From Nitrosomonadales bacterium (GTDB lineage Bacteria > Pseudomonadota > Gammaproteobacteria > Burkholderiales > Gallionellaceae), in the NCBI GenBank assembly GCA_016214695.1, contig JACRNY010000004.1, positions 1 to 64,000 on the forward strand: a DNA stretch of 64,000 bases, in the 5' to 3' direction. This document shows positions 32,862-48,265 of this stretch, piece after piece (within the stretch, counting starts at the first letter, position 1; every line of letters starts with the position of its first letter). Both the position numbers and the translations under genes were made by a program. The notes beneath the pieces are model-generated. The model ran no database searches. It was not told where the DNA came from and saw only the letters and a list, made by a program, of their open reading frames with translations.

Positions 32862-33734
32862 ATGGCCGAACTGAAAACAAAGAACCACATCTGGCTGCAC
32901 ATCGGGCTCATCAGCTTCACGCTGCTGGCGATCTATCCGGTGCTGTGGGTGCTGGCGCTGTCGTTCTCGGGCCAGCAGAGCGTGGGGCTGATCGACCTGC
33001 CGCAGGATCCGACTTTCCTCGAACGCCTGCGCGCCATCCTGCCGGTGCCGGAACACTGGTCGGTGAAGAACTTCACCGAGGTGTGGACCGAGCAGCAGTT
33101 CGGCCGCTGGCTGTGGAACAGCGTGGTGATCTCGCTGATGACCACCTTGCTCGGCGTGTTCCTTGCCTGCACCGCGGCGTACGCGTTCTCGCGCTTCCGC
33201 TTCCCCGGCCGCAACCTCAGCATGCTCGCCTTTCTGGTGTCGCAGATGTTCCCCGGCACGCTGATGCTGATCCCGCTGTTCATCATCATCGTCAAGCAGC
33301 TGGAGCTGGGCAACACCTACATCGGACTGGTGATCGTGTATGCGACGACCTCCATCCCGTTCTGCGTGTGGATGCTGAAGGGCTATTTCGACACCATCCC
33401 CTACGACATCGAGGAATCGGCGCTGATCGACGGCGCCTCGCGCATGACCATCTTCTGGCGCATCATCCTGCCGCTGGCCAAACCGGCCATCGCCATCACC
33501 GCGCTGTTTTCGTTCATGACGGCATGGAACGAATTCATCCTCGCTTCGGTGTTCATGGAGTCGGAGGCGAACTACACCGCGCCGGTGGGACTGCGTTTCT
33601 TTGTCGGCGGGTTCTCTTCGCAATGGGGATATTTCGCGGCGGGCTCGGTGATCGTTTCGCTGCCGGTGGTGGCGCTGTTCCTGCAACTGCAGAAATATCT
33701 GATCTCCGGCCTTACTGCGGGAAGTGTTAAATAA
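32862..33734 (+). CDS. malG: MalG-type permease
   Basis: Second permease subunit, 290 aa with six predicted helices. It starts one base after the MalF stop. The EAA motif EESALIDGASRMTIFWRIILP is one residue longer than I quote as a unit, so note its core as EESALIDGASRM at about residue 186. The C-terminus LISGLTAGSVK closely matches the MalG tail thought to reach into MalF. Together with malK, malE and malF it completes an importer. Confidence 0.93.
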   Translation: MAELKTKNHIWLHIGLISFTLLAIYPVLWVLALSFSGQQSVGLIDLPQDPTFLERLRAILPVPEHWSVKNFTEVWTEQQFGRWLWNSVVISLMTTLLGVFLACTAAYAFSRFRFPGRNLSMLAFLVSQMFPGTLMLIPLFIIIVKQLELGNTYIGLVIVYATTSIPFCVWMLKGYFDTIPYDIEESALIDGASRMTIFWRIILPLAKPAIAITALFSFMTAWNEFILASVFMESEANYTAPVGLRFFVGGFSSQWGYFAAGSVIVSLPVVALFLQLQKYLISGLTAGSVK

Positions 33735-33927
33735 ATGCAACAAAAAGTATCGAATAGATAAAAAACATAATTTTCAAGGAGTAGACTCGGTCTATCGCTA
33801 CAGGCTCGGTGCTGGACCTTGCTTCCGCTGGTGATGAAGTTGTTGTGGCTTTGAGTATCTGAATCTCTGAATCACCACAGGAAGTGTTGGCTGACTGTAA
33901 CGTTCAATTGAGAGAAGGAGAAAGCGC

Positions 33928-34716
33928 ATGATCAACAATAAAACCGCTCTTGCTGTTTGCCTCGCGTCCCTGCTGTCCCTCTTTGTTTCTTCCGCTGCAC
34001 AAGCTGTCACTTTCGACGACGCAAAAGGTGACGACAAAGGCCCGGGCAATTATGTCTATCCCACAGATGGTGTCTATAAACCTGGCTCGTTCGACCTGAC
34101 CAGACTCTCGGTCAAGAAGAGCGGAGACAATATCGAGTTCGCTGCCGACGTCAACAGCTCGCTGGAAGATCCCTGGGGCATGGGAAACGGCTTCTCGGTG
34201 CAGATGATCTTCATCTTCGTCAAGACCGGCCCCGGCGGCCACACGGAAGGCTTGCCCGGCCTCAATGTGCAATTCGCCCCGGGCAGTGAATGGAACAAGG
34301 TGGTCATTCTGTCCCCGCAGAAGAAGGCGCGCGTCGTCGGCGAGGCGCAGACCAAGGCCCCCAAACTTGTCGCAGACATCGTCGTTCCCAATTCCACCCG
34401 CGGCAACAATCGCACCATCAAGGGCTCGGTGCCGGCCAGTGAGCTGGGCGGCGATGGTAATGTCGACGGCTGGTCTTACCAGGTGATCATGCAATCCAAT
34501 GAAGGCTTTCCTGCCGCGACCGATCTGCTGACCCGCAAGGTAAATGAATATGAAGGTCAGCACCGCTGGGGCGGCGGCAATGACGGCGATTGCGATCCGC
34601 ACGTGAGTGATGTGCTGGAATCGGCCGATGCCAAACAGGCGGACATGCTGGCCTACACCTGCGGTGCCAACGGTGAGTCGGTCAAGCCGGCCACCCTGAA
34701 GATGATCAAGAAGTGA
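33928..34716 (+). CDS. Exported glucodextranase-C-like carbohydrate-binding protein
   Basis: A 262-aa secreted or periplasmic protein with a Sec signal peptide (cleavage after AQA, about residue 26). The mature part looks like the C-terminal module of glucodextranase-type enzymes: an early DDAKGDDKGPGNYVYPTDG motif, then F-D-L-T-R-L and a GFSVQMIFIFVKT strand. There are no catalytic hydrolase motifs, so binding of glucans is more likely than cleavage. Two cysteines (GDCDPH, YTCGAN) may form a disulfide. AGAAGGAG precedes the ATG, which lies 193 bp after malG. A second protein with the same module is at 36671. Confidence 0.75.
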   Translation: MINNKTALAVCLASLLSLFVSSAAQAVTFDDAKGDDKGPGNYVYPTDGVYKPGSFDLTRLSVKKSGDNIEFAADVNSSLEDPWGMGNGFSVQMIFIFVKTGPGGHTEGLPGLNVQFAPGSEWNKVVILSPQKKARVVGEAQTKAPKLVADIVVPNSTRGNNRTIKGSVPASELGGDGNVDGWSYQVIMQSNEGFPAATDLLTRKVNEYEGQHRWGGGNDGDCDPHVSDVLESADAKQADMLAYTCGANGESVKPATLKMIKK

Positions 34717-34754
34717 TGCGTAGTCGATCTTTAACCTGATGAAAGGGGATGGAA

Positions 34755-36506
34755 ATGAGTAAGTACACATTGAAACCTTTGTGCCTGGCTATCGGTCTGG
34801 CTATGGCGGGCTCGGCTTCCGCGGCCACGCTGGATCTGAGCGGTACGAATTTCTACATGAAATTCCTCGACGGCAGCCAGATGGGAGCGCCCACCGGGAG
34901 TATCGATACCGCGAGCGGCGGTGACCAGGGGCAGTTCACCGAGATGAATCTCAACTTCAAGGCGACGATCTCGCCCAAAGTCGAGGCCGGCGGCCGCATC
35001 CAGAGCCGCAGCAGTGCGGCCTACTGGACCGAGTTCGGCGGTTTCGGCCAAGAGAATGCCGGCGGCGGATACACGGCTGACCAGATCAATCACCAGAAAT
35101 TCATGAAGCTGCGCGGGGCCTATGTGGAGTTGAGCCCGGGCTACGACTGGCTGAGTCAGGTCCGTGTCGGCACCAGCGACTGGGGCATGTTCGATCCGTT
35201 CACCGTGGGCAAGATCCGCTATATCGACCGCGACAATTACAACGGTCTGTACTTCAAGGGGCCGATGATGGCATCTGGCAGCAGTTGGGAATTGGCGCGC
35301 GTCTCTTTGCCGAGCTATCTGCAGTACAACTGGGGCCAAGGTCCGGTTTGCTGTAGCACGGACAATGCGCAATACAACGAGGCGGTCTATATCGCGCAAT
35401 TCAAGATGCCGGCCGGCCCTGCCAAGCTCGCTGCTAGCTACATGTCATTCATCGATCACACGGTCGGGACTACGGCCAACACCTACACCGGAGTGAACAC
35501 GAGGGCCATCTACAAGAACACGGTTCTCTCTCTCAAGGCGGATGCCAGCCCGGCCGACGGTATCGATCTGCGCGGTGCCTACTACCGTTCGACATCCGAT
35601 ACTTCGGCGGGCACCGTTGGCGAGACTTGGGGTAATGCGCCGCGTTCCAGTCTGACCGACAAAGCCATCAAACTGGATGTGGACTGGACGACTCCGGTCG
35701 ACAGCCTGACCTTGAGCTACCAGTACTTCAATATCGGTGCAGGCTATTACAGTACGGCGGCAGCACGTCGAGAATCCGATGTTTTGCTCACCGAGGGTTC
35801 CGAGTCGGCCTGGTACAACTGGGGTAATGCGATCTGGTCCGGCGGTGCGACATCCGACTATACCCAGTCCGCATCGGCCAGAAACGTCACCGACAATGCC
35901 TATATGGACTTCAACGAGTCCCCGGCAGAGTCTTCGATCGGCTGGAAGGGCCATACCTTCATGGGCAAGTATGAGGTGGCAGAGACGCCCATGTCTTTGG
36001 AGCTGACCCGCGTCGGCTACAACAACAACTGGCAGAACTATTCCGCGACCGGGCCGCTGTCCAATTACTTTGCCTTGAATCAGGACCGTTCGACCAACAT
36101 CATCGCGTTCAAACTCAACCACAACTTCCAGGTGATGGGTGGACTGGATGCCAATCTGAAGTTCAAACGCGTGGATGACAAGGACAAGGTGTCCGCCGCC
36201 ATTGCCACGGATGATCGCAGCGTGCTGGATAGCGGTGTGACAGCCAGTGTGGGCAACCAGTTGTTCGCCGACCTGTACGGCACACTGTCCTTCGGTCGTT
36301 ACATCCGCGACATCAAGGCCGGTGCCAACACCTTCAACAACTCCAAGAGCATCTATGGCGTGAAACTGGCTTACAACCTGCCCGGATTCGAGATGGGGAT
36401 GTTGACGCAGTGGATTCGCGGTTACGGTTATCCGACAGAGACAGTTGGCCCGTCTATCAAGATCCAGCAATATCGCATGAAGGCATATGCACAGGTCAAT
36501 TTCTAA
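34755..36506 (+). CDS. Outer-membrane beta-barrel protein (porin-like)
   Basis: A large porin-like protein of 583 aa from ATG 34755, chosen over ATG 34749 because AAAGGGGA is better spaced. A Sec signal peptide ends after SASA. The rest alternates polar and hydrophobic residues with many aromatics, and it ends in VNF, the C-terminal Phe signature read by the Bam complex. No named family recognised. Between glucan-binding proteins and a maltodextrin importer, it probably lets oligosaccharides through the outer membrane (inference). A strong terminator follows. Confidence 0.75.
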   Translation: MSKYTLKPLCLAIGLAMAGSASAATLDLSGTNFYMKFLDGSQMGAPTGSIDTASGGDQGQFTEMNLNFKATISPKVEAGGRIQSRSSAAYWTEFGGFGQENAGGGYTADQINHQKFMKLRGAYVELSPGYDWLSQVRVGTSDWGMFDPFTVGKIRYIDRDNYNGLYFKGPMMASGSSWELARVSLPSYLQYNWGQGPVCCSTDNAQYNEAVYIAQFKMPAGPAKLAASYMSFIDHTVGTTANTYTGVNTRAIYKNTVLSLKADASPADGIDLRGAYYRSTSDTSAGTVGETWGNAPRSSLTDKAIKLDVDWTTPVDSLTLSYQYFNIGAGYYSTAAARRESDVLLTEGSESAWYNWGNAIWSGGATSDYTQSASARNVTDNAYMDFNESPAESSIGWKGHTFMGKYEVAETPMSLELTRVGYNNNWQNYSATGPLSNYFALNQDRSTNIIAFKLNHNFQVMGGLDANLKFKRVDDKDKVSAAIATDDRSVLDSGVTASVGNQLFADLYGTLSFGRYIRDIKAGANTFNNSKSIYGVKLAYNLPGFEMGMLTQWIRGYGYPTETVGPSIKIQQYRMKAYAQVNF

Positions 36507-36542
36507 GGCCTGAGCGATACCCCGTCGCGATGACGGGGAACG

Positions 36543-36570
36543 CCCCTCCCGTAGCCCGGGAGGGGTTTTT
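36543..36570 (+). terminator. Rho-independent terminator after the porin-like gene
   Basis: CCCCTCCC (36543-36550) pairs perfectly with GGGAGGGG (36558-36565) around a 7-nt loop, followed at once by TTTTTCTTTT. It ends the maltodextrin [16 protein letters not shown] the separate gene at 36671. Confidence 0.92.
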
Positions 36571-36670
36571 CTTTTGCCTCTCTGCACTGCGCACCTGCAG
36601 GCGTATACTTCGACCGACAGAACAGTTGCCCCGGTGTGCCTCGTCAACCTTTGAGAAGAAGGATCTGGAA

Positions 36671-37780
36671 TTGAGAATATTATTTCTGGCTGCGCTGATA
36701 TTCACGGTGTTGAACGTATCGGCGGGCTCCCTGCCTGTGGTCAGCATCAGCGATCCTGCGGGGGATGATTTCGGCGACGGTACCCTCAGGTATCCGCAGC
36801 GTGAGGATTTCAAGACTGGTGATCTCGATCTGTTGCAATTGCAGATCAGCCGCGATGAGCAGGGATTCTGGTTCGAAGCCGTGCTGAAGAATCCCATCCG
36901 CGATCCGGCAGCCGTGCATGCCACCGTGGGTGGCGATTCGCTGGCGGATTCCGCGCGCAAGGGGTTCTACCAGTTCAATATCGACGTCTATATCGATACC
37001 GACCGGGCCGAAGGTTCGGGCAACACGTTTACGCTGCCGGGACGCAAGGTGCGCATCGATGCCGACTTCGCCTGGGAAAGAGCAGTGATCCTCACGCCTC
37101 GTCCGGAGCTGATGCGGCAGCAGTTGATCGGTGTGCTGCTGGAACAATATCCGGAAAAGTCGACAGCCGAGATCGAGGCGAGCGTGGACCAGTCCCTGTT
37201 CTTCCCGACCCGGATCAAGGTGCGCGGCAAGACGATCGCTTTCTTTGTGCCAGCCGGTTTTTTTGGCGGCAGTGCGGGGAGCAACTGGGCGGCCACCGCA
37301 TTGGTCACCGGGGCGATCACGACTGTATCAGCCGACTTCTCGCTTTTTCCATCGACGAAGAAACCGCTCGACATCCTTCTGTTGGGGGTCATGCAGCCCG
37401 CGCTCGGGCACCCCAGGGACAGCTTCGGGTACAGCGAGCGTCAGCCAAGTCCTGTGGTCGATGTGTTGGGAGCTTCGAGCGAGCAGCAGATTCAGCAGCT
37501 TGCCGACAAGGAAGACCTGAGCGGCGTGTCGTGGGGGTCGGCGGATGCTGCCGACAAGACTCAGGCTGCGACTGCATCGGTGACGCCTATCGCCAGATTG
37601 CTACAGCCGCAAACAACTCTTGCGATCACGCCTGCCGGATCGGGTGCAGCAGAGGAGCGCTCAACTGTCGATGGCGCCATCGCCAGGCGGCTGCAATCTT
37701 TGCAACAGCTGTACGACCAGAAACTCATCGACGAGACCGAGTACAAGCAGCAGAAGCAGCGCATCCTGAACGAACTGTGA
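36671..37780 (+). CDS. Exported glucodextranase-C-like protein with SHOCT-like C-terminus
   Basis: A 369-aa protein with a likely signal peptide (LRILFLAALIFTVLNVSAG). I start it at TTG 36671 because AAGAAGGA lies about 7 nt upstream and the signal peptide begins there; the open frame extends further upstream through the terminator. The N-terminal two thirds resemble the glucodextranase-C module of the 33928 protein (DPAGDDFGDGTLRYP, then GDLDLLQLQI). The last 35 residues form a SHOCT-like helix pair (LQQLYDQKLIDETEYKQQK), common in proteins that oligomerise or bind nucleic acid, odd for an exported protein. It is expressed separately from the operon upstream. Confidence 0.7.
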   Translation: MRILFLAALIFTVLNVSAGSLPVVSISDPAGDDFGDGTLRYPQREDFKTGDLDLLQLQISRDEQGFWFEAVLKNPIRDPAAVHATVGGDSLADSARKGFYQFNIDVYIDTDRAEGSGNTFTLPGRKVRIDADFAWERAVILTPRPELMRQQLIGVLLEQYPEKSTAEIEASVDQSLFFPTRIKVRGKTIAFFVPAGFFGGSAGSNWAATALVTGAITTVSADFSLFPSTKKPLDILLLGVMQPALGHPRDSFGYSERQPSPVVDVLGASSEQQIQQLADKEDLSGVSWGSADAADKTQAATASVTPIARLLQPQTTLAITPAGSGAAEERSTVDGAIARRLQSLQQLYDQKLIDETEYKQQKQRILNEL

Positions 37781-37856: not shown

Positions 37857-39917
37857 CTAGAGGTTGAGTTGAAGCTGGATGTGGATCGAGCGTCCGGGCA
37901 ACGGCAGGTCGGAAATCATACCCACCGATTTGTAGGTTGGCTCCCAAGCCTTGCGATCGAACAGGTTGTATACCATGGCACTCATTTCCCAATCTTCGGC
38001 GAACTTCTCGCGGCGCAAGGTCAGATCCACCAGCGTGTAATCGGGAACCTTTGCGCGGGTATCTCCGGGTTCGCGCATGCGGTCTGCCACGTGGTTGGCT
38101 TTGGTGGCCAGATGCCATAACGGCATGAAACGCCAGTCGGCCCGCGCGAACAGGCGGCGATGCGGCGCCATGCCGGAGTCCTGACCGGTTGCCGAGTCCC
38201 TCGAGTGCTGCAAAGAATAGCTGCCAGTAAGCCGCAGATTGCCAGTGGCGTCATAAGTCGATTCCAGCTCAAGGCCGCGCCCGGTCTGGTCGCCAGAGTT
38301 CTGATAGGTGGCAGCGGGCAGGATGATGTCGCGCATGCGGTAACGGAAGAAATTCAGGTTGTTCTGCACTTCGGAAGTGGCCTGCCATGAAAACGCCAGT
38401 TCGTCCGTAGTGATCATCTCCGGCTTGAGGCCGGGATTGCCCACGGTCACCGGATTGTTGATGGCGTACAGCTCGGAGAAGGAAGGGGCGCGGAATGCCG
38501 TGCCGTGCAAGACCTTGATCACGACGTTGTAGTCGGCATCCCAAACCAGGGCGAGGCGCGGGTTGGTGGTGCCGCCGAAATCCGAATAATCGTCATGCCG
38601 CACACCGACGGTCAAAGCCCAGTCCTTGGCGAGACTCCATTCGTCCTGAACGAATGCATAACTCACGTTCCGTTTGTTCGGCAGCATATAGACCAGCGTC
38701 GGGTCTCCGGTCACATCGATCACTGCCGGCAGCGGAGCAAGCGCGGCATTGAAATTTTTCGTTTCCCGAACTTCATACATATCATCGATACGGTATCCCG
38801 TGCCGATGCGGAAACGATGCTGCTCGAATCCTGTATAAAAGGCAGAGACGCTGGCATGGGTGTGACGTTCAGAATGGCTGGGATTGCCTATCATGCCGTT
38901 GGGGAATGCTCCCCCGAATGCCCCCGCCGGGAAGATCGTATAAGCCGGATTGCCTTTTTCCTTATTGTCGTAGAAACCGAGTACGCCAGACACATCCCAG
39001 TTCTGTGCCCAGTTTGCCTGTTCGTAATTCAAGTCCAGGAACAGTCTGGACGAATGACCGCGCGAATTCGGGTCTAGGCTGCCTGCGACACCAACCCCCG
39101 TTCCCAAATCCCGCTTCTGATAGCCGGCGCGAAAGCGCCATTCGTCGCTGGAAAGATCCATGCGCATGTCGATCGCTTTACGCTCGGTACTCATCGGACC
39201 CGGGGCGAGCGATGCATTGGACCCGAACACGGTGTCCCAGGTCGACTGTGCATCTTGCTGGATGATGCCTTTGTGCCCATCGGTGTTTCCGGCTCGGAGA
39301 TAGAATGCGGCATCAAGAGTTCCCACCTTGCCGCCGTGCTGTATCCAGGCGTCACGTGTATTGAAGCTGCCGGCACGTACGCCGGTCTCTGTCCCCTTGA
39401 TGTCGGACGCGGTCTTGGTGATGACGTTGATCACGCCGGAGAAGGCATCGGCTCCATACAGCGCCGATCCCGGGCCGCGGATGATCTCGATACGCGCGAC
39501 GTTCTCCAGCGGCATGCCGCCCCATATCTGTCCGCGATCCCCCCAGAAGACATTCGTGATCGGAATGCCGTTCACCAGCATCAGGACTTGCGGGTTGTAC
39601 TTGGTGGCGATGCCACGAAAACCGTAGATGGGGTTTAATGCGGAATGGGAAAAGGAGACATGCAGTCCGGGGATACTTTCCAGCGCCTGATCCAGATCGG
39701 TCGCGCCCATGGCCTTTATGTCCAAGGCGGTGATCACACTCGCTACAGCCGGTGCCCGGGTGAGGGGTTGCTGGCTGCCGGTCGCAAGGCTGATGGTGGA
39801 TTTGTCGCCATATGCCAAAGCCAGGTCTTCCTCCTCTTCCGCGGATTGCGCAAGGACTGCGTTAGTCCAGAACAAGGCAAGAAGAGCGCAGAGTGTGCGA
39901 CGAGACATTGCTTGCAT
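37857..39917 (-). CDS. TonB-dependent outer-membrane receptor
   Basis: A 686-aa energised outer-membrane transporter. The start at 39917 is supported by GGGAGGAG upstream and gives a signal peptide ending NAVLAQS. The plug domain (about 40-165) contains VNGIPITN and RIEIIRGPGSALYGADAFSG. A beta-barrel follows with the typical AFRAPSFSELY strand and ends QLQLNL. It resembles CirA/BtuB-like receptors; the substrate cannot be told. It lies 73 nt downstream of the citrate-synthase-like pair on the same strand and may be the last gene of that operon. TonB-system exbB/exbD genes are at 62061-63102, but no tonB gene is seen. Confidence 0.92.
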   Translation of the reverse strand: MQAMSRRTLCALLALFWTNAVLAQSAEEEEDLALAYGDKSTISLATGSQQPLTRAPAVASVITALDIKAMGATDLDQALESIPGLHVSFSHSALNPIYGFRGIATKYNPQVLMLVNGIPITNVFWGDRGQIWGGMPLENVARIEIIRGPGSALYGADAFSGVINVITKTASDIKGTETGVRAGSFNTRDAWIQHGGKVGTLDAAFYLRAGNTDGHKGIIQQDAQSTWDTVFGSNASLAPGPMSTERKAIDMRMDLSSDEWRFRAGYQKRDLGTGVGVAGSLDPNSRGHSSRLFLDLNYEQANWAQNWDVSGVLGFYDNKEKGNPAYTIFPAGAFGGAFPNGMIGNPSHSERHTHASVSAFYTGFEQHRFRIGTGYRIDDMYEVRETKNFNAALAPLPAVIDVTGDPTLVYMLPNKRNVSYAFVQDEWSLAKDWALTVGVRHDDYSDFGGTTNPRLALVWDADYNVVIKVLHGTAFRAPSFSELYAINNPVTVGNPGLKPEMITTDELAFSWQATSEVQNNLNFFRYRMRDIILPAATYQNSGDQTGRGLELESTYDATGNLRLTGSYSLQHSRDSATGQDSGMAPHRRLFARADWRFMPLWHLATKANHVADRMREPGDTRAKVPDYTLVDLTLRREKFAEDWEMSAMVYNLFDRKAWEPTYKSVGMISDLPLPGRSIHIQLQLNL

Positions 39918-39990: not shown

Positions 39991-40806
39991 CTACTTGGGC
40001 CAGGCTCTTGGAGATTCTCCCTCATACAGAATATCGGCGCAAGGAACAGGATACAACGTCCCCTCCGGCCGTTCCGAGGCCTCGATGAAGCAGGGGGGCA
40101 TCCCGGCAAGAAAGGCCGGGAAAGAATACAGATAATATTCCTGGGGGCTAAGGCCGATATCGGCAATCAAAGCCGCGACCAGACCGGCATAGTTCATCTT
40201 CATGCGCAGCCGGCTGGCCAGCATGGTCTCCTCGATGCGTGCGGCGAGCTGCAGGTACGGTCCTTGATCCAGCTTCAGTGCTTTCGAAAGTGCCAGCATA
40301 TGCTGGTTGCGTTCGTCGCCGTTGATGAGAGGGCGGCCGTAGCCTGCCACGCTGCGGTGTGTATCGAGCTCAAGGCGGATGCACTCGGCCAGATCGCCTC
40401 CTGCCTCTGTTTCTTTGCGGGTGCGGATCAGGAAGTCGAAAGCGCGCATATCTATGCCGCGGCCGTATATCGTTGCTTCCGATACGGCCATCGCTGCTGC
40501 CATACCCAGGGTGCCCGTACTCCTCGAACTGCCTGCCAATGCAGCGACACGATTGTTCCACAAACGGACATCGGGATAACTGGTGTAAGTCCAGATGGAG
40601 TGCATCAGTCGCAATTGCTCCTTGCTGAAGCGGCGGCCGGTGATGCCGAACATGTACAGTTCGACCCAATCCATGTCCTGCAGCTCGGTGTGCAGGTCGC
40701 AACCGCGGTAGATCACATGGCTGCCCGGGTAGAAAGTGCCCATGCGGCTCTTTAATTTGCCGACGTTCTCCTGCAGCAGTTCCGGTCCAGCGGTTTTCAT
40801 GTTCAT
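39991..40806 (-). CDS. Degenerate citrate-synthase-like protein B
   Basis: A 271-aa member of the citrate synthase fold, shorter than the roughly 370-430 aa enzymes. By eye it aligns with the catalytic-domain order. The loop that carries the first catalytic His (PLHGGAN-type) reads IYGRGIDMRAF. The GFGHRVYK-type loop reads AGYGRPLINGDER, with Arg for His. The NVDFYSG-type loop reads MKMNYAGL, without the Asp. All three citrate-synthase catalytic residues therefore seem replaced. Its start overlaps the stop of protein A by 4 nt, which suggests obligate co-production. The two may form a heteromer with altered chemistry, or a binding or regulatory protein. Confidence 0.75.
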   Translation of the reverse strand: MNMKTAGPELLQENVGKLKSRMGTFYPGSHVIYRGCDLHTELQDMDWVELYMFGITGRRFSKEQLRLMHSIWTYTSYPDVRLWNNRVAALAGSSRSTGTLGMAAAMAVSEATIYGRGIDMRAFDFLIRTRKETEAGGDLAECIRLELDTHRSVAGYGRPLINGDERNQHMLALSKALKLDQGPYLQLAARIEETMLASRLRMKMNYAGLVAALIADIGLSPQEYYLYSFPAFLAGMPPCFIEASERPEGTLYPVPCADILYEGESPRAWPK

Positions 40807-41609
40807 GCGGGCTCTCCGGTCGTTTCGTTTTCGAGTTCCACGCTGCCGAACGGGAAATTCTTGTAGCCGAGCGGACGCTGTTCCAGCGCATGCGCCGCAG
40901 CCCCGGGGAGTCGCAGCAGCAGGTGCAGCATCTCGCCCTGATCGGGCGTGAATCCAAGGTCGGCGAATGCGGCGGCGGCGACGCCGGAGAGCGCCAGTGG
41001 GCAGCCCGCCGCCGTTTCCAATGCGGACAGGTTCTGCTGCAACCAAGGCAGATACTTAGCGGAGTCGGATCGCGCAAGGCAGGCGAGGGCCTGCTTCACC
41101 GGCGTGGCGGTGCTGACTCCGTGCGGGTCGAAACCGGGGGCATGCTCGGGTTTCGGCCAGATGCTGCCGGAAGTTTCATCTGGCCGGGAGAAATGTTGAC
41201 GCCATGCAGCGATATCGCAGCCGCATTCCTGCCAGGCTTGCATCGCCAGATATATCTCGCGGCCACCCGCGAACTGTCCGGCGCCCACCGCCAGCGCTGC
41301 CATGAGTGAAGAAGCGGCAGTCGAGCCGCAGACGCCGCCGCACATCGCGGCATGGACGGAAGCATCACGCGGACCGGGATTGGCCAGTGCGACGGCCAGG
41401 GTTTCCAGCAGATCGGCTTGTTGACCCGTGGGGGCTTCGTGGCGGAACAGCAGGAACAGCATATCGACCCAACGTGTCCGTCCGAGCATCTCGCCGTAGA
41501 CGTCGTAGCCATGGCAGTACGCAGCCCGGGTTGCGAAAGGATTGTCGGGTTCTGCTTCCTCGCGCCAGATGCGAGTACGAATTGCATGGGGTTTCTCGGT
41601 ATGCGACAT
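40803..41609 (-). CDS. Degenerate citrate-synthase-like protein A
   Basis: A 268-aa citrate-synthase-fold protein starting at ATG 41609 after TAGGAG. Fold marks include GEMLGRTRWVDMLFLLFRHEAPT near the N-terminus, the helix around VHAAMCGGVCGSTAASSLMA and the closing LPGAAAHALEQ. The first catalytic-His loop reads GQFAGGREI, with Ala for His, and the catalytic-Asp loop reads CPLALSGV, without Asp. A His remains in GFDPHG near the second position. It is coupled to protein B downstream and starts 8 nt after the SDR stop. Small citrate-synthase-like proteins are sometimes called citryl-CoA lyases, but the missing residues argue against assuming that. Confidence 0.75.
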   Translation of the reverse strand: MSHTEKPHAIRTRIWREEAEPDNPFATRAAYCHGYDVYGEMLGRTRWVDMLFLLFRHEAPTGQQADLLETLAVALANPGPRDASVHAAMCGGVCGSTAASSLMAALAVGAGQFAGGREIYLAMQAWQECGCDIAAWRQHFSRPDETSGSIWPKPEHAPGFDPHGVSTATPVKQALACLARSDSAKYLPWLQQNLSALETAAGCPLALSGVAAAAFADLGFTPDQGEMLHLLLRLPGAAAHALEQRPLGYKNFPFGSVELENETTGEPA

Positions 41610-41617
41610 GCTGGCTC

Positions 41618-42376
41618 CTAAGGTAAACACACAAGGCTGATACCGCCATCGACTACGATCTCCTCGCCGACCACAAATGTCGAGTCGTCCGAAGCGAGGA
41701 AAAGGGCTACTTTTGCAACTTCCTCCGGGGTACCCAGGCGCTTGCTGGGGGAGCGCCCCTCGATGTCGTTTTTGATCGCCAGCAACATCTCCTGCGGGAT
41801 CGGTAAGCGATTGAAGCCTTCGGTGTCGATGGGGCCGGGATTGATCGCGTTGACCCGGATCCCCCTGCCGATGAGGGCCAGCCCCAGAGATTGCACAAGA
41901 GAACGCAATGCAGCCTTGCTTGCTCCATAAACGCTGAAGTTGGGCGATCCGGTTCGATTGGTGATGGAGGTGGTGATGATGATGGACGCATTCTTGCTGA
42001 GTACCGGCAATGCTTTCTGGATGGAGAAGAACACGCCTTTGAAACAGGTCTGCACGATTTCATCGAACTGATCTTCGGTGACCAGGTCGACCGGCGCAGG
42101 AGTGCCAGAAGCGGCGTTAAGAAACAATACGTCAAGCTGGCCGAAATGTTCTTTTACCCGGGTCATCATGGAGTCGATCTCGGCCAGACTGCCGGCTTCG
42201 CTGCGGATGGTCAAGGTCTCTTCGCCCAACTCTTTCTGTGCCGCGGCCAGCCTTTCCGGATCCCTTCCCGTCACAGCAACACGCGCCCCTTCTGCAAGGA
42301 AGAGCCTTGCTGTCGCCAAACCAATCCCGCTCGTCCCACCAGTGATCAATACCGTCTTGCCTTTGAGCCTGTCCAT
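41618..42376 (-). CDS. Short-chain dehydrogenase/reductase
   Basis: A classical NAD(P)-dependent SDR of 252 aa. The ATG at 42376 is preferred because AGAGGA is well spaced from it; the ATG at 42382 is too close. The cofactor loop ITGGTSGIG, the NAASG motif, the catalytic Ser in TTSITN and the YGASK motif (Tyr and Lys) are all present, as is the C-terminal VVDGG. The substrate is unknown. It lies 23 nt after the ThDP-enzyme gene, so it could reduce the keto product of that enzyme (inference). Confidence 0.9.
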   Translation of the reverse strand: MDRLKGKTVLITGGTSGIGLATARLFLAEGARVAVTGRDPERLAAAQKELGEETLTIRSEAGSLAEIDSMMTRVKEHFGQLDVLFLNAASGTPAPVDLVTEDQFDEIVQTCFKGVFFSIQKALPVLSKNASIIITTSITNRTGSPNFSVYGASKAALRSLVQSLGLALIGRGIRVNAINPGPIDTEGFNRLPIPQEMLLAIKNDIEGRSPSKRLGTPEEVAKVALFLASDDSTFVVGEEIVVDGGISLVCLP

Positions 42377-42399
42377 ATTCATTCCTCTAGTTAAGTTTC

Positions 42400-44268
42400 T
42401 TATAGTGCATTCGTCAAAACACGCATACGCACGTTCATCGGCGGGATCTCTTCCGGGTCGATGTGAACATCCAGCAGGGTCGGGCCGTTGCGTTTGCACA
42501 AGGCATCGATATCCAGCCCGGCGAGATCTTCGGGCGAGCGGATGGTGAGGGCTGCGGCCCCCAGTGCGCGGGCCAGCATGGCGAAATCGGTGGGCGGCAG
42601 TTCGCAGCCGATCTGTTCCGCTCCCGCCAGGCGCTGGCCGTGCTTGACCATGCCCAGCGAGCGGTCGTTGAGTACCACGAAGACGATGCTGAGCCTTTCC
42701 GCGACGGCGACGGAGATCTCCTGACCGTTCATCAGCATGCTGCCGTCGCCGGTGATGCACACTACCGGCGCATCCGGGTTGGCTGCGGCAGTACCGATCG
42801 CGCCACCGATCGCCCAGCCCATCGCGGCGAAGTTCATGGTGACGCGCAGCCAGCCGCCGTCGGTCTTGCGTTGTCCCTGCGTTATCTTGCGGCCACCCCC
42901 GCCAAGCCGACGTTCGCTGATGCGCCGGTCGGTGACGGGATGCAGGTAATGTACCGACCAGGCTACGCTATTGCCGGTGTCGGCGAGGAAACGAGTGGTG
43001 GAGGGGAAACGTGTGCCCAGCTCGCGCATCAGGCGTTGCGGGGTAAGCGGGGAGGCATCGCTGTCGAACTTGTTTGGCGCCGCCAGCATGTGCAGCGGGT
43101 CCCACTCGCCGCTTTCCACTTCGCGCGCGGAACGTCGCCTCTGATGCTCAGTACTGTCGTCGCTACGCTGGTTGTGCTGGCGTTCGATCATGCGGTTGAA
43201 TACCGACAGGATGCGTCCGCGCACATGCAGGCGCGCCATCGGTGTGCGCGACAGGTGCTCTTCGGATTCGTCGATATGTGCCAGCCGCTCGTTGAGCAGA
43301 CTGTCGCACCAGCCGCCGCTGTTCCATTCGCCCATGCTGGTGCCGATCGCCAGGATCAGATCCACCGACTGGTCGCGCAAAGCGGTCTCGGCCGAGGCGT
43401 GGCCGCCGAAACCGAAAACGCCGCGGAACAGCGGATGGCGCGGGTTGACCAGTCCTTTTCCGTCCGGGGTCGTGACGAATGAAGCTCCTTTCATGGCGGC
43501 AAACTGGAGGATGGAACCGATAGCCTCGCCACAGCCGCTGCCGATCAGCATGACGACATTGCTGGATCGTGCCAGCACCTCGCACAAGGTGTCGATGGCG
43601 CAGTTGTCCACCAGCGAGGAGGGCGCCAGCAGGGTGCGCAGGTCGTAAGAGGGCGCAGCAGCCGGACTGGGGCTGCGGAACACGTCCACCGGAAAAGACA
43701 GGTGGGAAGGCCCTTTGGGGGCGCGCACCGCGCGCTGTAGTGCCGAGATCAGTTTGGCTTCGATCTGCTTCGGATGCGAGATCAGCGAGTTGTAGCGCGT
43801 GCAGTGGCGGAACATGCTGAGCGTGTTGATGCCGGTGCAGCTCGATTCCTGCAGCGGATTCTTGCCGAAGGAGGGTAGCGCGGGCTGTCCGGTGATCACC
43901 AGCATGGGGACGTTGTTGTCGTAGGCGCAGGCGACGCCGGTGATGAGGTTGGTGGCACCGGGCCCGGAGGTGGAGCAGCAGACACCGACCTTGCCGGTCT
44001 CGCGCGCATAACCATCGGCCATGAAAGCTGCGCCAGCCTCGTGGCGGGCCAGGATGTGGCGGATGCCACCCCTGCGTTCGCTTCTGGCGAGCGCGTTGTA
44101 TAAGGGTTCTATCGCACCGCCCGGGACGCCGAAGACATATTCGATGCCTATCTGTTCCAGGTAGGCGACCAGCAGGTCGGCCACTTCAGCGGTTTGAGCG
44201 GGAACGATGCCGGGATTCTTTCCGGCAACATCGGCGGGTTTCTGGACAAGCGAAATTTTGGCGTTCAT
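42400..44268 (-). CDS. Acetolactate-synthase-like ThDP-dependent enzyme
   Basis: A 622-aa enzyme of the ThDP-binding acetolactate synthase superfamily. It has the catalytic Glu in LARHEAGAAFMADGYAR, GPGATNLITGVACAYDN, the central FAD/DHS-like domain and the ThDP site GDGSMLMNGQE with LNDRSLGM. GGAGGG precedes the ATG. It lacks an adjacent small regulatory subunit (ilvH), and its neighbours are an SDR and citrate-synthase-like genes. A dedicated carboligase or decarboxylase is therefore more likely than branched-chain amino acid synthesis. Two basic or polar insertions are unusual: about residues 365-395, and around 460-485 (RRISERRLGGGGRK). Confidence 0.85.
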   Translation of the reverse strand: MNAKISLVQKPADVAGKNPGIVPAQTAEVADLLVAYLEQIGIEYVFGVPGGAIEPLYNALARSERRGGIRHILARHEAGAAFMADGYARETGKVGVCCSTSGPGATNLITGVACAYDNNVPMLVITGQPALPSFGKNPLQESSCTGINTLSMFRHCTRYNSLISHPKQIEAKLISALQRAVRAPKGPSHLSFPVDVFRSPSPAAAPSYDLRTLLAPSSLVDNCAIDTLCEVLARSSNVVMLIGSGCGEAIGSILQFAAMKGASFVTTPDGKGLVNPRHPLFRGVFGFGGHASAETALRDQSVDLILAIGTSMGEWNSGGWCDSLLNERLAHIDESEEHLSRTPMARLHVRGRILSVFNRMIERQHNQRSDDSTEHQRRRSAREVESGEWDPLHMLAAPNKFDSDASPLTPQRLMRELGTRFPSTTRFLADTGNSVAWSVHYLHPVTDRRISERRLGGGGRKITQGQRKTDGGWLRVTMNFAAMGWAIGGAIGTAAANPDAPVVCITGDGSMLMNGQEISVAVAERLSIVFVVLNDRSLGMVKHGQRLAGAEQIGCELPPTDFAMLARALGAAALTIRSPEDLAGLDIDALCKRNGPTLLDVHIDPEEIPPMNVRMRVLTNAL

Positions 44269-44563
44269 TTCAAAAATTCCCTCCTGGCGGCTTCTGTCGC
44301 CTCATTGTTTGTTTTTATCCGCCTCGGGGTGGCTGAACCAGGCAAATTTCCCTGCCGAGACTACGCTAATGCAGCAGGTTTATGTGCGATGGCGTACAAT
44401 CATACCCATGTTGTCGGTGTGGGCAGTGTAAAGCCTGATATTATTCGAAGCAAGTAAAGAGGCCGGTGACAGGCCACAAAGATTCAAATCGTTATCCTGA
44501 TGCCGGATGAAATATGGCAATCAGCCGTCGGACAAGGATATCGACCAATCAGGAGGAGTTTTT
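44269..44563. other. Divergent intergenic region
   Basis: About 295 bp between the minus-strand ThDP operon and the plus-strand leader ORF. It must hold promoters in both directions. I see no convincing -35/-10 pair, tRNA or repeat, and the short open frames across it have no ribosome binding sites or recognisable products. Confidence 0.4.
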
Positions 44564-44629
44564 ATGGGGTCATTCGATGTCAATTGCTCGGATAGTGTCA
44601 CTAACACTTGCCTGAACAGGCTTGATTGA
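44564..44629 (+). CDS. Possible 21-aa leader peptide
   Basis: An ATG 5 nt after AGGAGGAG, one of the strongest ribosome binding sites here, opens 21 codons (MGSFDVNCSDSVTNTCLNRL and a final D). The stop at 44627-44629 lies inside the extended frame of the next gene, whose own ATG at 44652 has no ribosome binding site. A translated leader that delivers ribosomes to the downstream start is plausible. It contains two Cys codons. Confidence 0.4.
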   Translation: MGSFDVNCSDSVTNTCLNRLD

Positions 44630-44651
44630 ACGACACTGCACGGCATCGATC

Positions 44652-45806
44652 ATGAGCATGTTCTCCCACCTCGTACTGTTCTGCACACGGATTTATTTCC
44701 GCAACCGAATAGCCATCGCGATTTTTTTGTTTGCTGTGGTGTTCCCCCCCGTTTCGTTGGCCAATACCGCCGTTACCGATCATTTCCCCGAAAAAGGTCC
44801 GTCTTGGGCGGAAGATTACTCGGGGACGATCAGTGCTATCGAAGCCTCCCAGGATGTGGTGGTCTTTCCCATCCAGGTCGCCGGGAATGGGGTTGTCGGC
44901 GCCTCCAGAAGTCTGACTAACAAGGTTGCGGAGCTGGCAGAAGTGGGCGGTATCGCGGTGATCTACCCGGATATCGGCGAACCCTATCGCAGTGTGTTCA
45001 CACAGATCATCGACGGTATCGAGGATAAGGCCAAAGGACATGTCGCCAATTTTGCCGTCGGTCCAAACGTCGATGTCGGGGAATTGAACGAATCCCTGCG
45101 TCGCCAGGATACCAAGGTGGTGATCGCTCTGGGACGGCAGGGCGTGAAGGTGGCCAGCTCGCTGGACAGCAAGATCGGTGTGGTGGTTGGCGGCGTGTTG
45201 TCCGCTGCCGATGGCGGTGGGCGGCAGCTTCAGGTGAACAGCCTGTCGCCGGATCCGGCACTGCTGTTCGCGAGATTGAAGAAGATGATGCCCGGCGTGC
45301 GCCGCATCTTCACAGTGTATGACCCGCGCCAGAACGAGTGGCTGGTGCAGTTGGCAAAAGACGGCGCCGCTGCGCAAGGGCTGGAGCTGGTGACCCATCA
45401 GGCGCAGGATCTGCGCAGTGCCATGCGGGCCTACCAGGAGGTCATCGCGAACGCCGACAACAGCCATGATGCCCTGTGGTTGCCGCAGGACTCCACTACG
45501 GTAGAAGAAGGCACTGTGCTGCCATTCGTGCTGCAAGAGTCCTGGAACAGCAATCTGGCGGTGTTCTCCAGCAGCTTCGGCCACGTCAAACGCGGTGTGC
45601 TGTTCTCCCTGTATCCGAATAACGTCGAATTGGGGCGCCATCTTGCCGGAGATGCGCTCGACCTGATGTCTTCCGGCGGAGTGGATGTCCCGGGAGTGAC
45701 TCCGTTGCGCGAAGTATTGATGGCTGTCAACCTGCGAACCGCCAAGCATCTCGGGCTGAATACCAGCCGCTTGCAGAGCTTCGACATGGCATTCCCCGAG
45801 CAATAG
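44652..45806 (+). CDS. Periplasmic ABC-type substrate-binding protein (ABC_sub_bind-like)
   Basis: A roughly 384-aa exported protein of the ABC_sub_bind type, two Rossmann-like lobes often found beside signalling proteins. Residues about 19-40 form the signal peptide hydrophobic core. Further on lie the family-like segments VIALGRQGVKVA and VRRIFTVYDPRQNEW. The start is uncertain: ATG 44652, ATG 44658 or TTG 44622, none with a clear ribosome binding site. The gene ends 11 nt before a GGDEF-EAL gene and has no transporter partner, so it more probably senses a ligand for that protein than feeds an importer (inference). Confidence 0.75.
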   Translation: MSMFSHLVLFCTRIYFRNRIAIAIFLFAVVFPPVSLANTAVTDHFPEKGPSWAEDYSGTISAIEASQDVVVFPIQVAGNGVVGASRSLTNKVAELAEVGGIAVIYPDIGEPYRSVFTQIIDGIEDKAKGHVANFAVGPNVDVGELNESLRRQDTKVVIALGRQGVKVASSLDSKIGVVVGGVLSAADGGGRQLQVNSLSPDPALLFARLKKMMPGVRRIFTVYDPRQNEWLVQLAKDGAAAQGLELVTHQAQDLRSAMRAYQEVIANADNSHDALWLPQDSTTVEEGTVLPFVLQESWNSNLAVFSSSFGHVKRGVLFSLYPNNVELGRHLAGDALDLMSSGGVDVPGVTPLREVLMAVNLRTAKHLGLNTSRLQSFDMAFPEQ

Positions 45807-45817
45807 GCGCGCCAGAG

Positions 45818-48265
45818 ATGAAGAAAACTATATTGGCGGCCTTCCAGAGATTCACCTTCCAGCGCCAGATCGGCTTTGCGGTCACGCTCGGCATCCTCTT
45901 CCTCGCCCTGTTCTCGTCGCTCGTCGAATCCTGGCAAGTGAATGCGAGGGTCCGCCACGATCTGATCGAGCAGGGGCAGCGCATCACCGAGAATCTGGCC
46001 CGTCAAAGCACCCTGGCACTGGTCTATTCTTCTGCGGATAATGCCGCCGAGGCGGTGAAGGCGACCATGTCCTTTCCGGGGGTGATCGGGGTTGAGATCC
46101 GGCATGCCAACGGGCATGTGTTGCTGGCGCAGGGCGAGAGCAATTCAAGCAGGCTTTTTGTGGAGTCAGCCAGGGTGGACGGCTTGCAGGCGGCCGCCAT
46201 GCTCGATGCGGAAAGCAGCAAGGCCTGGCATTTTGCCGCCCCGGTCTACTCGCAACCGGCGGAGGATTCGCCGTTCGAGGAACCGGCCGCGCCGGAATTG
46301 CTCGGCAAGGTCTCCGTGGTGATGAGCAAGGCGGCCTTGGCCAGAACGACATCCGACATCTTCATCACCAATCTGGCTACCTCGTTCTCCTTTGCGCTGC
46401 TGTTCCTGTTACTGATCCGCTATCTGACCCGCAGCATAGCCCGGCCACTGAACCAGCTGTCCGACAGCATGGAGCGCGCTCAACTGGGCGAATCGCAGGT
46501 TCGCGCCGAGCCGGGTGGGCCCAAGGACATCGCCGATATGGCGCATGCCTTCAACGACATGATGGCGGTGCAGGAAGAGCGCGAAGCAGCCCTGCGCATC
46601 GCCGCGATCGCTTTCGAGACCGAAGAGGGCATGATGGTGACCGACGAGAGTTCGGTGATCATCCGCGTCAACCAGGCGTTCACCCGGATCACCGGTTACA
46701 GTCAGGAGGATGCGCTCGGGGCAAAACCTTCCTTGCTCAGATCGGACATGCAGGACGAGCAGTTCTTCCAGCGCATGTGGGAAAGCCTGCGCAAGACCAA
46801 CAGCTGGCAGGGCGAGATATGGAACCGGCGCAAGAACGGCGAGATATATCCGGAATGGCTGACCATCACCGCGGTGATCGGCAAGGACGGCGAGGTCACC
46901 AATTACGTCGGAACCTTCGTCGATTTCACCGAGCGCAAGAAAGCCGAGAACGAGATACATCTGCTGGCGTATTACGACCCGCTCAGCCAGTTGCCCAACC
47001 GGCGCATGCTGCTGGATCGCCTGCGCCAGGCGGTCTCGACCAGTGTACGCAACCATACCGGCGGCGCGCTGCTGTTCATCGATCTGGACAATTTCAAGAC
47101 GCTCAACGATACCAAAGGGCATGGTATCGGTGATCTGCTGCTGATCGAGGTGGCCAAGCGGCTACAGGACTGTGTGCGCGATGGCGATACGCTGGCACGT
47201 TTCGGCGGGGACGAGTTCGTGCTGTTGCTGGAAGGACTGAGCGAGGAAAGGGCGCAAGCCGCGGTGCAGGCCAAGGCTGTCGGAGAGAAGGTCCTGGACG
47301 CATTGAGTCAGCCTTACATCCTCGACGGGAACGAATTCCACAGTTCGTCGAGCATGGGCATCACCTTGTTCATCGAATACAAGGACAAGCTGGACGAGTT
47401 GCTCAAGCAGGCCGACACCGCCATGTATCAGGCGAAGAAGTCGGGGCGCAATACTTTGCGTTTCTTCGATCCGGCGATGCAGGAGGAGCTGGAAGTCCGT
47501 GCACAGCTCGAGATCGGTTTGCGCGAGGCGTTGCGCAAGCATGAGTTCCGGCTGTATTACCAGATGCAGGTCGACCATACCGGGCGTATCCTGGGGGCGG
47601 AAGTGTTGCTGCGTTGGATACATCCGGAGCGCGGCCTGGTCCCTCCGATGCAGTTCATTCCGCTGGCGGAAGAGACCGGTCTCATTTTGCCGATCGGACA
47701 CTGGGTGCTGGAAAGTGCCTGCCAGCAACTCAAGGTCTGGCAAGCCGACCCGCGCAAGCGACACCTGCAGCTATCAGTCAACGTGAGCGGACGCCAGTTC
47801 CGCCAGGCGGATTTCGTGACGCAAGTCAGTGAGGTTATCGAGCGGACTGCGATCGAACCGTCACACCTTAAGCTCGAACTGACCGAGAGCATCGTGCTTG
47901 AGGACGTCGACGACACCATCGCCAAGATGCAGGCGCTCAGGCAGACCGGCGTGAGCTTCTCGATGGATGATTTCGGCACAGGCTATTCATCGCTGTCCTA
48001 TCTGACCCAGTTGCCGCTGAACCAGCTCAAGATCGACCAGTCTTTCGTGCGCCACATCGGCACCAAGACTTCGGATGCGACCATCATCCAGACCATCATC
48101 GGCATGGCCAGCAACCTGGGCATGGAGGTGATCGCCGAAGGGGTGGAGACGCAGCAACAGCGCGATTTCCTGGAAGCGAACGGTTGCCGCCTGTACCAGG
48201 GTTACCTGTTCGGCAGGCCGGTTCCGCTGGATGAGTTCGCCGCCAGCTTGCGCGAGAATGAATAG
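45818..48265 (+). CDS. Membrane PAS-GGDEF-EAL cyclic-di-GMP enzyme
   Basis: An 815-aa bifunctional-type protein for making and degrading c-di-GMP. A first membrane helix (about 19-38), a periplasmic sensor region (about 40-185), a second helix (about 187-205), HAMP (about 205-257) and PAS (about 265-385) lead to the enzymatic domains. The GGDEF motif (463-467) is intact, with an RxxD inhibition site five residues before it (RDGD). The EAL domain starts with Glu595 in EVLLRW and keeps NVSGRQF, ELTES, DDFGTGYSSL, KIDQSF and EGVET, so phosphodiesterase activity is likely. It is probably [13 protein letters not shown] with the binding protein upstream and the small protein downstream. Confidence 0.95.
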   Translation: MKKTILAAFQRFTFQRQIGFAVTLGILFLALFSSLVESWQVNARVRHDLIEQGQRITENLARQSTLALVYSSADNAAEAVKATMSFPGVIGVEIRHANGHVLLAQGESNSSRLFVESARVDGLQAAAMLDAESSKAWHFAAPVYSQPAEDSPFEEPAAPELLGKVSVVMSKAALARTTSDIFITNLATSFSFALLFLLLIRYLTRSIARPLNQLSDSMERAQLGESQVRAEPGGPKDIADMAHAFNDMMAVQEEREAALRIAAIAFETEEGMMVTDESSVIIRVNQAFTRITGYSQEDALGAKPSLLRSDMQDEQFFQRMWESLRKTNSWQGEIWNRRKNGEIYPEWLTITAVIGKDGEVTNYVGTFVDFTERKKAENEIHLLAYYDPLSQLPNRRMLLDRLRQAVSTSVRNHTGGALLFIDLDNFKTLNDTKGHGIGDLLLIEVAKRLQDCVRDGDTLARFGGDEFVLLLEGLSEERAQAAVQAKAVGEKVLDALSQPYILDGNEFHSSSSMGITLFIEYKDKLDELLKQADTAMYQAKKSGRNTLRFFDPAMQEELEVRAQLEIGLREALRKHEFRLYYQMQVDHTGRILGAEVLLRWIHPERGLVPPMQFIPLAEETGLILPIGHWVLESACQQLKVWQADPRKRHLQLSVNVSGRQFRQADFVTQVSEVIERTAIEPSHLKLELTESIVLEDVDDTIAKMQALRQTGVSFSMDDFGTGYSSLSYLTQLPLNQLKIDQSFVRHIGTKTSDATIIQTIIGMASNLGMEVIAEGVETQQQRDFLEANGCRLYQGYLFGRPVPLDEFAASLRENE

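Follow-up and report, generated by a model that had tools for sequence, protein, structure and literature searches.

A putative make-and-sense gene cassette built on a thiamine diphosphate enzyme and two proteins of predicted citryl-CoA-lyase fold

Two systems from Vibrio come closest to the gene locus reported here, which lies in a 64,000-nucleotide stretch (hereafter the window) of a Gallionellaceae genome (Nitrosomonadales bacterium, assembly GCA_016214695.1, contig JACRNY010000004.1, positions 1 to 64,000). In ScrABC of Vibrio parahaemolyticus, as outlined in PMC11315295, a single operon encodes an enzyme that makes a signal, a periplasmic protein that binds this signal and a GGDEF-EAL membrane protein that is switched, while in NspS-MbaA of Vibrio cholerae, as outlined in PMC8967002, a periplasmic binding protein with a polyamine ligand switches a GGDEF-EAL membrane protein, the pair being described there with neither a synthase nor a TonB receptor. 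The window likewise has a periplasmic binding protein (here of family PF04392) adjoining a GGDEF-EAL membrane protein, but where the signal enzyme of ScrABC is an aminotransferase, the window encodes a thiamine diphosphate (ThDP)-dependent enzyme, a short-chain dehydrogenase/reductase (SDR) and two lyase-fold proteins, which we call A and B. The cassette also adds a TonB-dependent outer-membrane receptor, and its outputs vary across loci (GGDEF-EAL, histidine kinase or a hybrid of the two). By analogy, the circuit may work like ScrABC, yet it is not ScrABC, and among the titles and abstract starts of the matches listed from the PMC literature we found no description of this gene set.

We see an even chance that the locus is a make-and-sense cassette, in which a product of the ThDP enzyme, A and B is read by the TonB receptor, the binding protein and the sensor. 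In the window, the ThDP enzyme (42400-44268), SDR (41618-42376), A (40803-41609) and B (39991-40806) are encoded in that order on the minus strand, with gaps of 23 nucleotides (ThDP-SDR) and 8 nucleotides (SDR-A) and a 4-nucleotide overlap (A/B), followed 73 nucleotides after B by the TonB receptor gene (37857-39917, minus strand; PF00593 and PF07715). This arrangement, including the receptor, is as an earlier reading of the letters (the original prediction) had stated, and is borne out by the DNA, the coordinates and Pfam. That prediction nevertheless drew its borders too narrowly, leaving outside both the TonB gene and a plus-strand pair (44622-48265) divergent from the ThDP gene, which encodes the binding protein and the sensor.

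Fold and catalytic positions of proteins A and B

A (268 residues) and B (271 residues) both match NCBIfam citryl-CoA lyase models, A with E=3.7e-14 and 52.4 bits against a curated cut-off of 261, and B with E=1.5e-08 and 34.0 bits against a cut-off of 193, both scores being far below the curated cut-offs. Neither protein reaches the gathering score of citrate synthase PF00285 (A scores 18.6 of 27 bits and B gives no match), while their relatives in L164, a locus of the remote group f27 described below, pass it with 33.7 and 28.1 bits. The top PDB match in Foldseek was the citryl-CoA lyase structure 6hxp for the AlphaFold models of both A (mean pLDDT 84.5; E=1.5e-08, 20% identity) and B (mean pLDDT 82.1; E=4.3e-09, 16% identity), with the lowest confidence in the B model around its DxRxWxN motif (pLDDT below 50 at residues 87-94). 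A and B are thus both predicted to adopt the half-size citrate-synthase fold, sharing fold and size with 6hxp, a citryl-CoA lyase, and with the lyase module of ATP citrate lyase. The original prediction had called them half-size citrate-synthase-fold proteins; the fold stands, but half size is no anomaly, being normal among citryl-CoA lyases, and A and B accordingly look repurposed rather than truncated. Given the matches to half-size lyase models and structures, we rejected the idea that they are truncated citrate synthases.

To compare catalytic positions (His264, His305 and Asp362 in E. coli citrate synthase numbering), we used a MAFFT alignment of 86 A proteins, 91 B proteins, 12 lyase-like proteins and both citrate synthases of the window's genome, from which rows outside 230-340 residues were dropped before counting. 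Asp362 has an Asp equivalent in 0 of the 177 A and B proteins. The His305 column holds Arg in 91/91 B (Arg158 in the window's protein) and His in 1/86 A (1/177 overall), and the His264 column holds His in 0/91 B and 13/86 A (13/177 overall), although this column falls in a variable stretch of A where the alignment is less sure. At the three columns, the window's A has F, P (within a shortened GFDPHG) and S, and its B has I, R and A. At the position of the oxaloacetate-site His, 79 A and 89 B have Pro, whereas the remaining 7 A and 2 B have Ala. Among the 12 lyase-like comparison proteins, 7 have all three residues and 5 have His305 alone. Half-size lyase-like proteins with His305 but without equivalents of His264 and Asp362 occur in L140, L142, L143, L144 and L145.

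These counts uphold the predicted loss of the catalytic Asp from both proteins, and largely that of the first His, which is gone from all B and from 73/86 A while 13/86 A retain it. The second His had been declared lost from B; this is so, but the loss is not confined to B, as 85/86 A also lack it. Judged by sequence, neither A nor B fits the catalytic definition of a citryl-CoA lyase or of a citrate synthase, and in comparison with 6hxp they are two diverged, side-by-side paralogues without the catalytic His, His and Asp.

Other residues are invariant. Across 21 rows spanning all three operon types, B has invariant Pro78, Asp79, Arg81, Trp83, Asn85, Arg158, Pro159, Glu165 and Arg166, among others. 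In A, the invariant residues include Glu17, Pro80, Arg81 and Glu243. B thus combines an invariant Arg with a conserved DxRxWxN motif. Since the pattern used to scan named genomes was built from this motif, which is therefore fixed by construction in the loci so found, its conservation rests on 35 rows (the window's protein and 34 found by protein search), in which Asp79, Arg81 and Trp83 are again invariant, and on members of the 21-row set from outside that scan.

The two genes are also tightly coupled. A adjoins B in 79/79 loci from named genomes, and 66 of the 85 measured gene pairs overlap by exactly 4 nucleotides (with starts picked near the query's start), an adjacency and overlap that exceed chance. 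In a quick tree, A forms one side of a branch and so does B (SH-aLRT, an approximate likelihood-ratio support, 89 and 100), each side including every one of the three operon types, which points to an old pair held under constraint. Given this old split and B's invariant Arg and DxRxWxN motif, repurposing seems a better description of A and B than decay. The joint loss of catalytic residues with tight A-B coupling, as originally proposed, is therefore well founded in the residue counts and in the conserved adjacency and overlap. Repeated sets were seen in two loci, with A-B-A-B-B in a row at L065:6408-10870 and two ThDP-A-B sets at L104:3620-10786.

The same residues could be read differently, with A and B as true coenzyme A (CoA)-dependent enzymes whose catalytic centre, made of new residues, goes unrecognised, and with the ThDP enzyme as a separate step. 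The invariant Arg158, Glu165, Arg166, Asp79, Arg81 and Trp83 of B and the four invariant residues of A speak for such a centre, but we know of no described mechanism that uses them, and a single complex is suggested by the 4-nucleotide overlaps and by the steady linkage to a ThDP enzyme. We regard this as the least probable of the alternatives weighed here, and it is compatible with a make-and-sense role of the cassette.

A constant core and its usual neighbours

We next describe gene content around B. A scan of named genomes based on the alignment of B proteins gave 336 stretches, of which 327 were confirmed and the best 80 were kept, corresponding to 79 loci; neighbours were counted on either strand, except for A, within 4 kb (ThDP enzyme), 6 kb (SDR), 8 kb (TonB receptor) or 10 kb (sensor and binding protein). 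A ThDP enzyme lies near B in 73/79 loci, a TonB receptor in 71, a sensor-type protein in 62 and an ABC_sub_bind (PF04392) protein in 58, the last count being more specific than those for sensor and SDR. At a loose threshold, an SDR is found in 35/79 loci at most. In 5 of the 6 loci without a ThDP enzyme, a contig end is no more than 1 kb from B. All seven genes are consecutive in Methylomonas koyamae.

The constant core is thus ThDP-A-B (hereafter the trio), usually joined to a TonB receptor, a membrane sensor and a periplasmic binding protein. With this unit, making and sensing a small molecule becomes a likelier role than a metabolic route. As an overall interpretation, the original prediction keeps its residue loss and A-B coupling but loses its four-gene unit, in which the SDR had been counted as a member, and its heteromer and its carboligation, reduction and CoA-ester chemistry are conjectural; the neighbourhood survey it had suggested for that set returned the larger cassette instead. 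By record title, the carriers are beta- and gammaproteobacteria and Geobacter relatives, and include Gallionella, Sideroxydans, Geobacter, Methylomonas, Massilia, Collimonas and Roseateles, with Methylomonas koyamae, Rugamonas rubra, Collimonas humicola and Dechloromonas hankyongensis among the named strains. Plasmid records gave no match to B at 1e-10. A defence system was also considered and set aside, PADLOC giving no match for five proteins.

The ThDP enzyme of the window (622 residues; Pfam TPP_enzyme N, M and C domains) has intact RHE and GDG...LND motifs, and among its relatives an xHE motif is present in 74/79 and GDG or GEG in 78/79. It scores 293 of the 538 bits of the acetolactate synthase equivalog TIGR00118, and its nearest solved relatives in a PDB sequence search are BbmA and CsmA (8x3x, 8x3z), CsmA having an LGMVxHG motif in common with it. 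The presence of the catalytic motifs and the closeness to BbmA and CsmA make carboligation its likely reaction. The products of BbmA and CsmA are, we presume, alpha-hydroxy-beta-keto acids. JanthE was considered as a further relative and rejected, being a YerE-like enzyme with CDG instead of GDG in the account of PMC12247030. The SDR, an optional member, matches PF13561 and scores 301 bits against NCBIfam PRK06500 (cut-off 336). At L038:9600-11556, a ThDP gene stands with an 80-residue remnant of B, no A was found and the receiver genes are kept, apparently a decaying trio.

On the other side of the ThDP gene, a divergent promoter region assigned by position only (44269-44621) separates it from the binding-protein gene (44622-45806, plus strand, start codon uncertain), whose product has an N terminus that by eye resembles a signal peptide, and from the sensor gene (45818-48265, plus strand), whose 815-residue product has HAMP, PAS, GGDEF and EAL domains in a domain scan. 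An inverted repeat, AGTGT-N5-ACACT, lies at 44594-44608 upstream of the ThDP gene; we discarded it as a conserved operator, as the window's is the only one of 77 upstream regions to contain it. Elsewhere in the window, at 32862-37780 on the plus strand, an ATP-binding cassette (ABC) permease gene and genes for two Glucodextran_C-domain proteins apparently form a separate sugar operon.

All six binding proteins scanned match PF04392, five of them above the cut-off and that of L180 at 23.9 of 25.9 bits. In other lineages, the sensor position is held by HAMP-type histidine kinases, some fused to REC-GGDEF-EAL. The Herbaspirillum sensor, for instance, reads sCache-HAMP-histidine kinase-receivers-Hpt-receiver-GGDEF-EAL, that of Geobacter sCache-HAMP-kinase-receiver (HAMP below cut-off) and that of f27 a CHASE8-like stretch (below cut-off) followed by HAMP-PAS-kinase-receiver, each with an adjoining PF04392 gene, while the L180 sensor is a kinase-receiver-Hpt-GGDEF-EAL hybrid. 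In Geobacter L073, genes for a ThDP enzyme, binding protein and histidine kinase lie on the strand opposite A-B. By domain content, these loci share one type of input but differ in output, and cyclic di-GMP (c-di-GMP) domains occur in the window, in L061 and in L180.

The f27 loci, from 4 genomes, were found with the lyase model and not with B; TonB receptor, A, B and ThDP enzyme occur together in 4 loci at about 30-38% identity. Open reading frames (ORFs) were listed for L163 and L164, both of which have a binding-protein-like ORF and a sensor ORF directly after those four genes, giving the row TonB-A-B-ThDP-binding protein-sensor, and Pfam was run on L164. With a broader B profile, matches were found in 10 of 398 genomes of the window's phylum, and among the loci fetched, L180 and L182 have the trio, TonB receptor, binding protein and sensor all present. 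In L177:3016-12875, L178:6642-16455 and L179:6630-16198, by contrast, the trio is followed not by TonB receptor and binding protein but by a Ser/Thr-kinase-AAA-GAF-histidine kinase, and L177 and L178, the two of these that were scanned, also have a LuxR-type response regulator; across L176-L179, no TonB or binding-protein match was found beside the enzymes.

The putative receiver half without the trio

In 150 genomes of the window's family, B (E<=1e-3) was found in 36, one of which (G074) has a remnant, and the binding protein (E<=1e-20) in 48. The binding protein is present in 34 of the 36 B-positive genomes against 14 of the 114 B-negative ones (Fisher p=4e-20), and G049, one of the two B-positive exceptions, has a piece of the binding protein at a contig end. 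In 200 genomes of the window's order, the profile has 12 matches to B, including the weak L181, and all 11 strong-B genomes are among the 16 with a binding protein, leaving 5 others without a strong B, both counts being presumably on the same 200 genomes. L181 (genome G589) was not counted as B, since its profile match is weak (8.9e-16), the ORF there has 405 residues and no trio is nearby.

From the 14 family genomes with a binding protein and without B, we fetched 15 loci. A TonB receptor lies near the binding protein in 14/15, with no ThDP enzyme, A or B in 13/15 and a ThDP enzyme alone in 2/15; for the most part, these genomes have the TonB receptor, binding protein and sensor side by side. 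Of these loci, L184, L194, L195 and L196 are on contigs shorter than 10 kb, and in L186 and L197 contig ends lie beside the binding protein, so that the trio could be out of sight; B was, however, not found in those genomes. The receiver half is thus separable from the synthase. Persistence of the receiver where the synthase is absent, together with a synthase standing beside another sensor kinase, would be expected if the product were a signal or a metabolite that cells share. A quick tree of 32 binding proteins requires trio state to change 8 times, with well-supported branches forcing at least 4 of these changes.

This separability bears on the possibility of a catabolic operon, in which the TonB receptor would import a substrate, the binding protein and sensor would detect it and induce, and the ThDP enzyme, A, B and SDR would degrade the substrate in the cytoplasm. 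Systems for substrate use usually combine a TonB receptor with cytoplasmic enzymes and a sensor in this way, and both ThDP enzymes and the lyase fold are able to cleave C-C bonds. But TonB-binding protein loci occur without the enzymes in 13/15 cases (four on contigs shorter than 10 kb), the enzymes of L176-L179 occur without TonB or binding-protein matches, and no inner-membrane importer was recognised among recurrent neighbours, neither ABC permease nor ATPase being recognised among 15 recurrent neighbour clusters (55 loci), of which only some were annotated. We consider a catabolic role improbable.

A make-and-sense reading, its difficulties and its meaning

Under the make-and-sense reading, the ThDP enzyme would join the acyl unit of a 2-oxo acid to an acceptor. 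The pair of A and B, perhaps as a heteromer of citryl-CoA-lyase fold, would bind or present a CoA thioester or the product without citrate-synthase catalysis, or may alternatively be part of the ThDP enzyme as a subunit; the 4-nucleotide A-B overlaps and steady ThDP linkage suggest that all belong to one complex. The SDR, where present, could reduce a ketone. The product would then exit the cell and be returned to the periplasm by the TonB receptor, where the ABC_sub_bind protein would bind it and, once loaded, switch the membrane sensor, which in the window would alter c-di-GMP through its GGDEF and EAL domains. More specifically, and at somewhat less than even chances, the cassette may represent a new class of bacterial extracellular signal system, in which the ThDP enzyme and a heterodimer of A and B, devoid of the lyase residues, would make a novel type of signal that neighbours and receiver-only relatives take up through a dedicated TonB receptor and read into c-di-GMP with the binding protein and sensor.

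Several observations weigh against the make-and-sense reading. The loose threshold means that the sensor and SDR counts (62 and 35) may hold unrelated proteins. A ThDP enzyme is absent near A-B in L090, a real exception, and in the Gallionellaceae locus L035, and in L073, L083 and L092 (Geobacter, Pelotalea) the nearest one has 33-34% identity and lies on the opposite strand. The binding protein was not found nearby in L065, L069, L070, L076, L104, L109 and L124 (each more than 14 kb) or in L072 and L116 (12 kb each), the remaining loci among the 21 without it being shorter than 10 kb each. The trio of L176 lies near an AMP-binding enzyme, with no sensor found on its 9.9-kb contig. No constant exporter was seen, an EamA-type gene being nearby in 4 of 21 loci. 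On the binding-protein tree, trio state shows only weak clustering (27 of 500 shuffles need as few changes), as repeated loss or transfer would give. Finally, TonB receptors usually carry metal chelates, vitamins and sugars, and a small signal normally needs none, making the receptor the least expected component for a signal; receiver-only relatives, moreover, also fit siderophore piracy. The EamA-type gene of this cluster at L041:12509-13435, beside the TonB gene, is a possible exporter (one cluster member scanned).

The TonB receptor thereby keeps alive a metallophore explanation, in which the trio would make a metal-chelating hydroxy acid or hydroxyketone, the receptor would retrieve its metal complex, and the binding protein and sensor would report the return. 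The receptor near B in 71/79 loci fits this, as do receptor-only relatives, which match piracy, and many carriers belong to Gallionella, Sideroxydans, Geobacter and other groups known for metal cycling. However, PF04392, matched in all six binding proteins scanned, is not known as a siderophore-binding family, the partly annotated neighbour clusters yielded no recognised ABC permease or ATPase, and other carriers, among them Methylomonas, Massilia, Collimonas and Roseateles, are not known to specialise in metals. We judge a metallophore unlikely, though the most credible of the alternatives.

Several carriers being named strains, the cassette is open to experiment. Biofilm signals of iron-cycling bacteria are little known, and if the make-and-sense reading is true, a self-contained circuit for making and sensing a small molecule would extend across beta- and gammaproteobacteria and Geobacter relatives, iron-cyclers included. 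It would add a type of signal synthase built on two repurposed citrate-synthase-fold proteins, and would provide a route by which a TonB receptor may feed a c-di-GMP sensor.

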